Part shown: piece by piece, positions 48,897 through 54,571 of the stretch | Layout: every line of letters starts with the position of its first letter | Position numbering within the stretch: position 1 is the first letter of the stretch | Origin: Planctomycetota bacterium | GTDB lineage: Bacteria > Planctomycetota > Planctomycetia > Planctomycetales > Planctomycetaceae | NCBI GenBank assembly: GCA_022600195.1 | Contig: JAHZKX010000051.1 | Location: 186,001-250,000, forward strand | Reading direction: 5' to 3' | DNA: 64,000 nt | The notes under the pieces: model-generated | What the model saw: only the letters and a program-made list of their open reading frames with translations | What the model was told of the DNA's origin: nothing | Databases searched by the model: none | Program-made: the position numbers and the translations under genes

Positions 48897-49664
48897 TTAT
48901 CCCTTGCGCAGTTCACCGAAGGCACGTTCCATCGCGTGTTGCAGCATCAATCCATCATTGGCATAGACGACCAGCCGGGCCCCTTGCCGAATCGTACGCA
49001 GCGCCTGCTTGGTGGTACCGAACCAGCAGCCCGCAGCGACATGCTGCTTGTTCGCGGTATCGATCACTTTTTGAATCGCCGCGATTAACTCCGGGCTGTC
49101 ATATTCACGAGGGATACCCATGTTGGTCGTCAAATCGCCGGGCCCGACGAAGACGGCATGTACGCCGGGAATCGAACAGATCTTTTCCAGATTCTCAATG
49201 CCTGGCACTGATTCGATCATCGGAATGAACAGCGTGTTTTCATTTCGTTTTTCAATGTAGTCTTCGGTCTTTTGATTCGCCCATTTGCCGGTCTCCAATA
49301 CACGATCCAGCACAATGCCTTTCAGTGGTCGATAGACGGCGGCTGCCGCCAGTTGTTTTGCCTGTTCGTATTCCTCCACATAAGGCACCACCACCCCGTC
49401 GAAGGTATCACACACCCGCGCCACATCCGCGGGATCGCGACTGTGAGTGCGCGCTAAACAGGCGATGCCCTTCGAAGCCAGTGCGTACTTCAACGGCAGA
49501 AACTCCGCCAGATCAAGGGTCGTATGTTCGGGAGTGACGATCACAAAATCGAGCGAGTTATCAGGAATCGACTCCACCATCGCCGGTACCACCGCATGCT
49601 GGAACAACGAACCATAAACGGTTTCGCCTTTGATGAGTTTATCTTTCAATTGTTTAGCCAGCAT
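48897..49664 (-). CDS. HpcH/HpaI-family aldolase
   Basis: This class II, divalent-metal aldolase family cleaves or forms 2-keto-3-deoxy acids or 4-hydroxy-2-keto acids. The 255-residue TIM barrel shows the start KLIKGETVYGSLFQH, the catalytic-region Arg ACLARTHSRDP, the Glu ligand in FIPMIESVPGIENL and the Asp ligand in FVGPGDLTTNMG. GAGGCGG precedes ATG 49664. Its sugar-acid type would fit with KDG metabolism (the kdgK gene at 23 kb), but not by neighbourhood. Confidence 0.88.
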   Translation of the reverse strand: MLAKQLKDKLIKGETVYGSLFQHAVVPAMVESIPDNSLDFVIVTPEHTTLDLAEFLPLKYALASKGIACLARTHSRDPADVARVCDTFDGVVVPYVEEYEQAKQLAAAAVYRPLKGIVLDRVLETGKWANQKTEDYIEKRNENTLFIPMIESVPGIENLEKICSIPGVHAVFVGPGDLTTNMGIPREYDSPELIAAIQKVIDTANKQHVAAGCWFGTTKQALRTIRQGARLVVYANDGLMLQHAMERAFGELRKG

Positions 49665-50905: not shown

Positions 50906-52000
50906 TTAAGGCAGGAAACCCTGTTTTCTTAAAAATGTTTCGGCTTCGCTTGTGCTGGGCCCCATGAATGCGGGCTGCATCATGAAGCTGTGGCCGGCTC
51001 CTTTGAATATTTTCAGCTCGAATTTTTGGCCTTGTGCTTTCGCCTTAGTCACGAAGGCCCTCTGGTGTTTGTAAAGATGGTCTCGATCACCGAACATGAT
51101 CAACGTGGGCGGCAGTGGTTCTTTCGTCAATATTCGAGATGCCGACATCTTCAGTGCATCCCGGGCCGGATGCAGCAATTGCCAGTCTCGTTGATTAAAC
51201 AATTTGAGGATCTCCTGAAAGTTTTTAGTTTCAGAGGCATCGATGTTCTGCTCTTTCCCTAATTTTGCTGCACGTTGAATCAGATTTGCTCGATGATCGA
51301 CGGGCATCGCGTACTCGTCCGTTTTGTTTTTGATGAACTTCAATAAATAAGGCAGAAACGCGGGAGCCCTGGCTTTCGTCTCATTTAAAAAAACCTCCAT
51401 TTTGACAAACCAGATATCGATCCCGTCAAAGGCAGGACAATACAACACCAGGGCATTGGGACGCGGAGAAACCCTATGGTCGTCATTCCGGTCTTCAAAA
51501 GAAGTATTGATGGCAGCCTGCAGCGCCAGGTCTCCGCCACCGGATGTTCCCGTCGCCACAATGCGTTTTGGATCAACGCCAAGTTGAGCCGCATTATTTC
51601 TTATATAGCGGATCACACTTTTGGTGTCTTCCACCTGCTCCCGCGGCTTGGGCAACTGGTTGATCTCTTTCAAACTCAAACCAGGAAGTTTTCCCGAATT
51701 GACGCCCGCAAGTTGCGGTTTTATGATGACCATACCCAACTTCCGGAAATGCTCGCGCTGTTCCGGAATTCGACATCGAAAAATGACCAGAGCCGACCGC
51801 TTGTCTGATGCTTTCCAATTGTCTGGATAATACACTGTGAGTGAGCGCCTGGGCTGCTGTTTGTAGACTATCGATGCCGTCTTGACCAATGCAGGCTGCG
51901 CGTTTTGTTTGACCTCATCAAAAGCGAAACCAGCAGAAATACCCGGGCCGGTAATGGCAAGTAAAAACAAACAACGAATGAAAGGGCAGAGACGGACCAT
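50906..52000 (-). CDS. Secreted alpha/beta hydrolase
   Basis: A 364-residue exported esterase-like protein. Signal: FLLAITGPGISAGFA. The hydrolase fold begins with SLTVYYPDNW and FRCRIPEQR, then the nucleophile elbow ATGTSGGGDLAL (Ser), Asp in MFGDRDHLYKH and His in GAGHSFMMQP. This is typical of planctomycete alpha/beta hydrolases near carbohydrate-active genes. AAGGAA precedes ATG 52000. It is divergent from csrA with a 117-base gap. Substrate unknown. Confidence 0.85.
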   Translation of the reverse strand: MVRLCPFIRCLFLLAITGPGISAGFAFDEVKQNAQPALVKTASIVYKQQPRRSLTVYYPDNWKASDKRSALVIFRCRIPEQREHFRKLGMVIIKPQLAGVNSGKLPGLSLKEINQLPKPREQVEDTKSVIRYIRNNAAQLGVDPKRIVATGTSGGGDLALQAAINTSFEDRNDDHRVSPRPNALVLYCPAFDGIDIWFVKMEVFLNETKARAPAFLPYLLKFIKNKTDEYAMPVDHRANLIQRAAKLGKEQNIDASETKNFQEILKLFNQRDWQLLHPARDALKMSASRILTKEPLPPTLIMFGDRDHLYKHQRAFVTKAKAQGQKFELKIFKGAGHSFMMQPAFMGPSTSEAETFLRKQGFLP

Positions 52001-52117
52001 CTCACGTTCCTTAAAGGGGACTCTGTTTCTCTTAAAACATTACAACCAGTACTGAAGCGCTGACAGAAATCGTTTTCATTCTGTCTGACGCACCAGATCT
52101 TCGCAAGGGAGCGAACC

Positions 52118-52384
52118 ATGCTCGTTCTTTCCAGAAAAACGAATGAGTCCCTCTGCATCGACGATCTGGAAATCACGGTGGGCTGGATTCGCTATAACAA
52201 AGTACAACTCATCATCGACGACTCTGGCGAAGTTGAACCAGTTGAGCAAATTTTGTACGTAGAAGAGAAACACGAACTCGCGCCTGAGATCACTATCATC
52301 GTGATTCTCATCACCGAAGATAAAGTCCGGCTCGGTATTGAAGCACCACCGGGAACACGCATGTACCGCGGCGAACACCCCTAA
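52118..52384 (+). CDS. csrA: CsrA-like RNA-binding regulator with a duplicated core
   Basis: CsrA dimers bind GGA in RNA leaders and change translation. This 88-residue protein starts in the normal way (MLVLSRKTNESLCI) and ends with a normal core, ITIIVILITEDKVRLGIEAP then GTRMYRGE. Between them, residues about 15-55, an extra segment repeats the strand pair, LEITVGWIRYNKVQLIID, followed by an acidic linker (SGEVEPVEQILYVEEKHE). Standard CsrA is about 60-70 residues, so the extra about 35 residues look like an internal duplication. GGGAG stands ahead of ATG 52118. It stands alone, divergent from the hydrolase. Confidence 0.85.
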   Translation: MLVLSRKTNESLCIDDLEITVGWIRYNKVQLIIDDSGEVEPVEQILYVEEKHELAPEITIIVILITEDKVRLGIEAPPGTRMYRGEHP

Positions 52385-52410
52385 CCCTGAAATTTTTCAC
52401 GAATCAGTAG

Positions 52411-53091
52411 CCTGAGATCGACCCCAGTGGCAGCTCTCGTGCATCGGGTCTTCCCTATCTAGGCGGTCTCTTAATTCCGGAAGATTTAGCAGACGGAATC
52501 AAATCGAAAATCAAGCACGCTTTGATATTTTCCTTACCTCAACTCCGCTATTTTCCCAAGCAGCTTCAAGAGGATCCTCCCAACTGGGTTTACCCGGCTA
52601 CGCGCACCGAATGTACGAATGGGATTGCCAACGCTCATGCACTTGCCGCCGGACAACGAATATTATTGAGAGATGTCTTACATGGTCACGGTGATTACAA
52701 GGATGCGACATCCGATCTCATCGAGGATAAATGCCTGCCACCCATTGTCCGCATCTTTCTGGATGTGCTCTACAATTATGGCGCATATCTGGTCGATGGT
52801 GCCGGTGGTTTCTCTTTAGCTGCTGAAGACATCCACACCGCAAATATGACAGAAGAGCAAGCGAAGGCTTTAATGTATTTTTCAAACTGCGGAGAAGATG
52901 CACCACTCTGGAACGAAAAGGCAACCCCCTGGCAGAACGTCATAGAAACGCTCAATTACTATCTCTGCTGCAAGTTGCTTAAGGGCGCAGGGCTGGCATT
53001 TGCTTACCTCGACGAAACAAACGGGTTCCGCCCCAACTTCAACATCGCCGAAGACATCCCGGCGTTTTATGCTGACCCCTGCAGAGAGTGA
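52411..53091 (+). pseudogene. 5'-truncated hypothetical gene
   Basis: The reading frame is open from just after a TAG at 52408-52410 and reads smoothly as protein from its first codon (IDPSGSSRASGLPYLGGLLI, then EDLADGIKSKIKHALIFSL), but there is no sensible start with a ribosome site; the first standard start, TTG 52522, falls inside this conserved-looking stretch. The region thus appears to be the C-terminal 227 residues of a larger secreted protein of planctomycetes and related bacteria, with its 5' part lost. The rest includes PNWVYPATRTECTNGIANAH and AAGQRILLRDVL. I do not know the function of the intact protein. It could still be expressed from the TTG. Confidence 0.6.
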
Positions 53092-53257
53092 CACATCGCC
53101 AGTGGAAAAAATAGCAATTGAAATATTTGCTGAATAGAGCGTGGACTAGAGTTCGTCTTGGAAAGGACCTTTGAACATCAAAGGACATGTTTTGCGCCAC
53201 GTTAGCTTATACTGGAAGATGTCCACAACCTTTGCCGATTAATTTCAACCGGTTCCG

Positions 53258-54571
53258 TTATCCATTAATCAACGGCAGGATCAATTTGACGGCGGTTCTT
53301 AGGGCCAGGAAGACGGATGAAAACAGGCCGATGAATCCCAGGATTTTCATCCAGGCGGGGATCTTGTTTTCGCCTTTCATATCGGCGCGGGTTGCCAGCC
53401 AGAGCATGGCGATGGCCAGCATCGGAATGCCTAACACCGTGAGTGACTGCGCGAAGATAATCAAGCCTACTGGTGCTTTTCCCTGGGTCTTCGTGAAAAT
53501 GGCAACCGCCATCCCCACCAGCAATGCTAAGACTGTGAATAACTTCGGCCATTTCAGGTCGATGTAACCACCCAACCCGAAGCCGTCTGCCAGAATGGAG
53601 CCGCCAATCATGGCATTGACCAGAAAGGAACTGAAGGCGCCCGCAAAAATACCGAGTGAGAAGATAATCATCGCTGATTTACCAAAGGCAGGCTCCAGAC
53701 TTTTCGCTACGTCAGTCACAGAACCCAAAGTAGTCACATCGGGATTGTGATAAAGCACCTTCGCTGCTGTGATCAGCACCATCATTGTAATCAGCCCCAG
53801 GGCACTGATGCCGAGGACGGAGTCTGTGAGACCTTGTTTGAGATCGCTTCTGGTCCAGCCTTTTTGTCGTACCAGATACGATTGATAAAAGGCACCCGCG
53901 ACAGAAAATGTTGTCGCGTAAAGTGCAACCAGCGGCGTCATATTATCTGTGACTTTACCAGCTGAGGCATCCCACTTCGGTAAAATCGTCTCGAAGGTTC
54001 CTTCAGGAATCGAAGGAATGAAACCAGACAAAGCAGCCAGCCAGTCCGGTTTCACTTGAAACAGGTTGATGGCGAATGCCACCATCATGATACCTACCAG
54101 CAGCTTCATCAATTTTTCAATGTGGCCATACAGGTGTTTGAAACCATACAGGGCCATAATAATGAACACGTTCATACCAATGATAATGCCCAGCGAAATG
54201 TTACTGTCTTTATCAATAAAGGGTTCCACTGCCGCCAGGACACCGAGGTTGTTACTGAATTGAAAACAGGCGGCGATCAAAAATAGAATGATGCCCGTTG
54301 CTGCGGCGATCGGACGGCCGGCACGACTTGCCAGTTCATCACAGATGGTGCCCTTGAGTTGAATACCCAACCGAGCCGACATCGCCGTCATCGCGATCAT
54401 CATGATCACCGCAATCACCAGAACCCAGATCATTTGATATTGATAGGAATGGCCAATCTTCGAAGCCGAAAGAATACTTCCCGGACCCAATACTACCGAA
54501 GCGGTAATAATCGCGGGACCCAAACTTCTGAGAATGCGTTGCAATGGATTGGAGGGTCGTTGATCGTTCAT
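53258..54571 (-). CDS. Nramp-related transporter without canonical metal motifs
   Basis: A 437-residue inner-membrane protein with eleven or twelve helices and the LeuT-like layout of Nramp proteins. In place of the DPGN motif of helix 1 it has GPGS (residues 29-32, in ASVVLGPGSILSASKIG), and the Met-Pro-His of helix 6 seems replaced in FSVAGAFYQSYLVRQKG. Those residues bind Mn2+ or Fe2+ in true MntH, so another substrate is likely. The gene stands alone; no metal-box or yybP-type leader was seen in the 145 bases ahead. Family assignment is fair, substrate unknown. Confidence 0.8.
   Translation of the reverse strand: MNDQRPSNPLQRILRSLGPAIITASVVLGPGSILSASKIGHSYQYQMIWVLVIAVIMMIAMTAMSARLGIQLKGTICDELASRAGRPIAAATGIILFLIAACFQFSNNLGVLAAVEPFIDKDSNISLGIIIGMNVFIIMALYGFKHLYGHIEKLMKLLVGIMMVAFAINLFQVKPDWLAALSGFIPSIPEGTFETILPKWDASAGKVTDNMTPLVALYATTFSVAGAFYQSYLVRQKGWTRSDLKQGLTDSVLGISALGLITMMVLITAAKVLYHNPDVTTLGSVTDVAKSLEPAFGKSAMIIFSLGIFAGAFSSFLVNAMIGGSILADGFGLGGYIDLKWPKLFTVLALLVGMAVAIFTKTQGKAPVGLIIFAQSLTVLGIPMLAIAMLWLATRADMKGENKIPAWMKILGFIGLFSSVFLALRTAVKLILPLING

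Follow-up and report, generated by a model that had tools for sequence, protein, structure and literature searches.

A small gene in the analysed window, a stretch of 64,000 nucleotides from the genome of a planctomycete, encodes a protein in which two CsrA units follow one another within 88 residues, against the single unit of an ordinary CsrA chain, and this two-unit architecture is well supported. The protein, hereafter P0001, carries the equivalents of the RNA-site arginines Arg6 and R44 once per chain and not once per unit: the outer pair is kept and the inner pair is lost, an asymmetry that was absent from the earlier reading of this DNA. Judging from sequence, we give a probability of roughly 0.6 to the interpretation of P0001 as a natural single-chain CsrA pseudo-dimer, derived from a tandem duplication and endowed with one RNA site; these odds follow from the residue pattern in the genus and in the family. 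The fold, monomeric state, RNA binding and biological role of the protein are inferred.

A preliminary description of the window had proposed a CsrA-like gene of 88 residues at this locus, and its reading frame was confirmed, with an ATG start, 88 codons and a TAA stop (Table 1); the product is MLVLSRKTNESLCIDDLEITVGWIRYNKVQLIIDDSGEVEPVEQILYVEEKHELAPEITIIVILITEDKVRLGIEAPPGTRMYRGEHP. A promoter scan of the locus returned 0 sites, 2 terminator-like sites were found where 0.6 were expected, and the fold of the leader had a z value of -1.86. The Pfam CsrA family (PF02599) matched the product in two stretches, with a total of 63.3 bits for a cut-off of 27, residues 1-36 being the better of the two. 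Moreover, when the DNA of the genome was searched with the same profile and cut-off, residues 1-35 were recovered as a separate match to profile positions 1-36 (34.2 bits), and residues 54-86 as another to positions 14-46 (30.1 bits). The CsrA equivalog models TIGR00202 and NF002469 gave 55.4 and 51.5 bits, respectively, below their cut-offs of 70.1 and 73. Both halves of P0001 belong by sequence to the CsrA/RsmA family, with the Arg6 and R44 equivalents at the two ends of the protein; however, CsrA/RsmA proteins have one unit per chain and form a two-site homodimer, whereas P0001 has two units, has lost the inner residues and is devoid of the C-terminal helix that follows β5, its chain ending 2 residues past the equivalent of E46.

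The second unit was placed with a score matrix built from ordinary CsrAs, which was applied to P0001 at offsets 30-44. The sole fit was obtained at +40, with scores of +9.2 for β3 and +28.9 for β4-β5, against at most 0.4 and at most -37.3, respectively, at the 14 other offsets (30-39 and 41-44). Copy 2 sits 40 residues after copy 1, with zero indels from β3 through β5; the extra part of the protein, previously put at about 35 residues, actually measures 40, and its interpretation as a second copy of the CsrA core was right, since the two stretches named in that comparison are both β3-β4 units of CsrA. In profile comparisons, copy 1 matched ordinary CsrA with an E value of 2e-15 (positions 1-39) and copy 2 did so with an E value of 2e-17 (positions 8-48, β2 included), while the two copies matched each other with an E value of 9e-6 and a probability of 83%. 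Residues 38-57 alone gave no meaningful profile match, and the single-sequence comparison of one half of P0001 with the other was not significant, as the second half, when shuffled, scored equally well in 1010 of 5000 cases. In copy 1, β5 is absent or unrecognisable; in copy 2, β1 and β2 score negatively against the CsrA matrix, and it is therefore from the relatives of P0001 that duplication of a whole domain is deduced. A reading of the protein as a single CsrA with a 40-residue insert, preferred by MAFFT when pieces of ordinary CsrAs were aligned, was rejected because copy 1 alone matches CsrA positions 1-39, including β3-β4, so that the inserted part is itself CsrA.

Table 1. Features of the tandem csrA-like gene and its surroundings, in window coordinates.
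Feature	Position	Strand	Remarks
Tandem csrA-like gene (P0001)	52118..52384	+	88 aa; two CsrA units and orthologues
AGGGAG, likely Shine-Dalgarno	52106..52111	+	6 bases upstream of the P0001 ATG; from sequence
Copy 1, residues 1-36, CsrA β1-β4	52118..52225	+	Pfam stretch 1-36; profile E 2e-15; model strands
Middle, residues 37-56	52226..52285	+	Expected place of copy 1 β5 and copy 2 β1-β2
Copy 2, residues 57-86, CsrA β3-β5	52286..52375	+	Offset exactly +40; second match 54-86; profiles; model strands
Arg6 codon (CsrA β1 arginine, copy 1)	52133..52135	+	R in 8/8 genus and 23/27 tandem proteins
Arg84 codon (copy 2)	52367..52369	+	R in 8/8 genus and 20/27 tandem proteins
Neighbour gene, product presumably aldolase-like	48897..49664	-	At least 88% identical near 7/7 orthologues (synteny)
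Neighbour gene, product presumably metal-transporter-like	53258..54571	-	Present in 5/9 relative regions compared (synteny)
Divergent neighbour gene, product presumably alpha/beta-hydrolase-like	50906..52000	-	Present in 3/9 relative regions compared

The RNA sites of CsrA are described as the parallel β1 and β5 of opposing monomers, with L4 and R44 as critical residues (PMC7652899), and the contacts described for RsmE involve Arg6A, Arg44B and Glu46B (PMC4005645). Both arginines are present in all ten ordinary CsrAs that Pfam found in the genome under study (10/10), and R44 is present in 78/78 ordinary CsrAs from other genomes, a set chosen by a pattern demanding Arg6 and for which only R44 is informative. 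In P0001 the pair is divided between the two copies, Arg84 in copy 2 being, as we take it, R44 in the numbering of E. coli CsrA (offset 40), and both outer positions are highly conserved (Table 1). At the inner positions 43, 44 and 46, R was found in 0/8 sequences of the genus: residue 43 is E, Q, K or S in the genus alignment, residue 44 is never R, and residue 46, which is the Arg6 equivalent of copy 2, is Leu in 8/8. Among 27 tandem proteins, an inner R was seen at position 43 in 2, and at positions 44 and 46 in 0. Exceptions to the outer pattern are found as well, with 4/27 lacking R at Arg6 and 7/27 lacking it at the R44 of copy 2 (K in 3 of these, and in L220 an R one place earlier), counts to be read in light of search models that were built from members keeping the outer arginines and are biased toward them; as some tandem proteins lack the outer arginines, one-site RNA binding cannot hold family-wide.

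These exceptions bear on a reading in which the tandem protein would not bind RNA alone, and would rather be an adaptor or antagonist of CsrA fold that either poisons ordinary CsrA subunits by swapping strands with them or has a protein as its binding partner. Several distant tandem proteins without R at Arg6 or at the copy 2 R44 fit this role, since in them the fold would be kept and the site would not; so do the ten ordinary CsrA genes available to be acted upon, and the lack of any FliW match at E 0.001 in the genome. Nevertheless, the outer arginines are invariant in the genus (8/8), an invariance that an RNA-independent role does not need, and we consider this alternative somewhat unlikely.

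Structure prediction with AF2 from the single P0001 sequence reached a pLDDT of 40 and was discarded. A further prediction used an input alignment (A8) in which fragments of ordinary CsrAs, 30 of them N-terminal and 4 C-terminal, were placed on residues 1-28 and 69-86 of P0001; the other fragment alignments (A5, A6 and A9) were left unused, MAFFT having misplaced the fragments. With these 34 rows, AF2 returned a pLDDT of 76, a pTM of 0.67 and eight strands in CsrA order, at residues 2-6, 11-14, 17-25, 28-33, 50-55, 58-65, 70-75 and 82-85, with no helix after β5 and with low confidence (below 50) at residues 43-48. As CsrA fragments were pre-placed on both copies, the model is not independent evidence, and the only strands not directly suggested by the input are those between the fragment-covered residues 1-28 and 69-86. 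With a model fed in this manner, the expectation that residues 15-55 would form CsrA-like strands was borne out at 17-25, 28-33 and 50-55, residues 43-48 being the low-confidence part. As modelled, the protein would comprise β1-β4 of one unit and β2-β5 of another, the middle region adding no more than one strand. The order of the CsrA sheet is given as β5A-β2B-β3B-β4B-β1A (PMC3791407), in which β4 and β1, and likewise β5 and β2, of opposite units adjoin; consequently, a single middle strand could take either place, and either placement would leave the second RNA site incomplete.

In the single-chain pseudo-dimer that we propose, copy 1 would supply β1-β4 and copy 2 would supply (β2)-β3-β4-β5, with one middle strand or loop standing in for both the β5 of copy 1 and the β1 of copy 2. 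Upon CsrA-like folding within one chain, β1 of copy 1 would meet β5 of copy 2 and one complete RNA site would be formed, while the second site would lack its two arginines together with one or both of its strands. The preliminary description had conjectured a binder that is monomeric or altered, and the arrangement suggests as much. Alternatively, two tandem chains may pair by swapping, and the larger assembly so formed would carry two of the outer sites, as a spaced two-site CsrA; CsrA subunits are naturally interlocked, and the sequence appears to forbid no exchange between chains. Against such pairing, each chain has the strands to close its own sandwich, and the monomer model attains the pTM given above, in a run that is blind to pairing; we regard it as unlikely.

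Full-length orthologues of P0001 were found at the syntenic locus in 7/16 other genomes of the genus, with 56-61% identity, and these homologues keep both units. The orthologue appears as a putative decayed remnant in 1/16 (genome G010) and had no full-length match in 8/16, two of the genomes devoid of an intact orthologue being less than 80% complete. This patchy presence would be expected of a decaying paralogue whose conserved arginines are mere leftovers, all the more so as G010, judged from its neighbouring genes, is one of the closest relatives. However, whole-gene dN was lower than dS in 4/4 close pairs (dN/dS of 0.31, 0.25, 0.15 and 0.17), the gene is intact and syntenic in 7 other species, and nine residues (V21, G22, W23, R25, N27, K28, V29, Q30 and L31) are invariant in the genus, from which we judge decay to be very improbable. 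Counts of substitutions by segment were small and uneven, one pair showing a dN of 0.03 and a dS of 0 in copy 2.

Just downstream of the tandem gene, the frame at 52411-53091 (+) corresponds only to the C-terminal part of a longer protein (residues 238-456 of the 456 of L158), with 66-87% identity to L158, L152 and L154; a tblastn search of positions 51901-53300 for the N-terminal half did not find it. In G010 (L158/L025), whose neighbouring genes are closely similar, the longer downstream gene is kept and the tandem csrA is the apparent decayed remnant.

The genome that harbours P0001 has twelve CsrA-family genes, made up of the ten ordinary ones, P0001 and a divergent gene (L011; G000:C4:73778-73996) that encodes a 73-aa CsrA (MHIISRG...PAYWEK) without R44. 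CsrAs of the latter type were found at E below 1e-22 in 14/17 genomes of the genus, this one included, and relatives in other genera read YWE or YREE at β5. L011 was considered as a half-tandem and rejected, since its relatives have the usual CsrA length and an altered β5.

Beyond the genus, the next relatives of P0001 are found in two genera of the same family (L131 and L149), and search models built from these brought in further ones. A search with a profile (A4) made from P0001 and 26 others recovered tandem CsrAs covering both halves in 28/170 genomes of the family, the present one included, and in 15/58 genera; most of the 28 genomes were already represented in the profile, one genome with an internal stop (G414) is excluded, and some counted rows include a terminal stop. 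Outside the family, a class search of 397 genomes found a tandem CsrA in another family (G044/L319, E 1e-10), and a phylum search of 392 genomes found one in another class (G759/L299, E 1e-8; a second place in this genome carries a stop), about 13 candidates per genome having been scored in these searches, so that members were possibly missed. As read from their sequences, both of these finds have R at the two outer places and Leu at the inner position 6. Pfam CsrA was found at E 0.01 in 27/27 members of the A4 profile, and two Pfam CsrA stretches were present in 5/5 singly scanned proteins (L256, L319, L299, L222 and L131). Among the latter, L256 (G036, 113 aa) has two nearly full CsrA copies; by our reading of its sequence, β1 is recognisable in copy 2 and K replaces R44 in copy 1, and the protein looks like a duplication that has changed less. 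In genome G155, nine tandem-CsrA places (L219, L220 and L321-L324 among our loci) represent an expansion, and in L219 and L220 a non-R residue is aligned to the R44 of copy 2.

Other sequence collections were also surveyed. In a scan of genome contigs (184 CsrA loci confirmed, 80 kept), no tandem CsrA was recognised among the matches listed, namely the best 60 rows of a search with the A4 profile and 78 CsrA stretches displayed up to a length of 70 residues, which did not correspond one to one with the loci. Similarly, the 42 CsrA loci of viral contigs (L257-L298) included no tandem among the ORFs listed (the last 110 residues in the case of long ORFs), and their proteins are of the ordinary kind as far as listed. 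A search of plasmids with P0001 gave no match at E 0.001.

A literature search on titles and abstract openings, mostly of open-access papers, found no description of a tandem, duplicated or single-chain CsrA among the entries listed. CsrA chains are described as having an average length of 65-75 residues (PMC7366521), with one unit each. One of the closest parallels is found in engineered one-site CsrA dimers (Mercante 2009, as described in PMC7652899), which combine one working and one dead RNA site, as proposed here for P0001; in those dimers the site was disabled by R44A in one polypeptide, whereas P0001 would be natural, of a single chain, and with its inner strands rebuilt. RsmN/RsmF of Pseudomonas, as described in PMC3791407, is like P0001 a rearranged CsrA that lacks the C-terminal helix and keeps the arginine, but it is a two-chain dimer with two sites and no second CsrA unit. 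The likeness to RsmN-type variants suggested in the preliminary description did not hold: the RsmN/RsmF insert is a helical one of 16 residues between β2 and β3 (PMC3791407) and is absent from P0001, in which β2 and β3 of copy 1 are contiguous and the addition is a second CsrA unit placed after β4 of copy 1. A third relation concerns the C-terminal domain of YqeH, a single chain of two repeats that forms a sandwich much like the CsrA dimer; in the account of a SCOP review (PMC2954204), both share an architecture by segment swapping, and an evolutionary link between them was imagined. The relation of the YqeH domain to CsrA, as described there, is structural and not one of sequence, its repeats being compact and related to CsrA through segment swapping (PMC2954204). 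The tandem CsrAs lie close to this CsrA-YqeH link as a case at the level of sequence.

If P0001 is indeed a one-site monomer, each molecule would be expected to bind a single A(N)GGA motif and could not bridge two sites of the same mRNA. It would then either occupy targets that have a single site or enter into competition with the ten ordinary CsrAs. According to a review account of the dimers of Mercante 2009, in which one polypeptide or both carried R44A, full repression of glgC needs both CsrA sites, and the same review refers to one known single-site CsrA target mRNA, hfq by the title of the reference (PMC7652899); it is on these grounds that a one-site CsrA would be expected to take single-site targets or to compete.

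Regulation by CsrA is attributed in large part to two sites that bridge two RNA motifs, and engineered dimers with one site have served to probe the function of a single site; a natural one-site CsrA, if true, would allow its study in vivo. A single-chain CsrA with one site, if true, would also show how an obligately interlocked dimer can become a single chain. It would further point to a division of the CsrA genes into structural classes in those planctomycete genomes that hold about a dozen of them. We tentatively put forward, at somewhat less than even odds, that Planctomycetes have repeatedly kept natural one-site monomeric tandem CsrAs, with one RNA site preserved by the ends of the chain and the other destroyed by its middle; these may fine-tune or compete with their many two-site paralogues and may represent a living intermediate between the swapped CsrA sandwich of two chains and YqeH-like single-chain sandwiches of two repeats.
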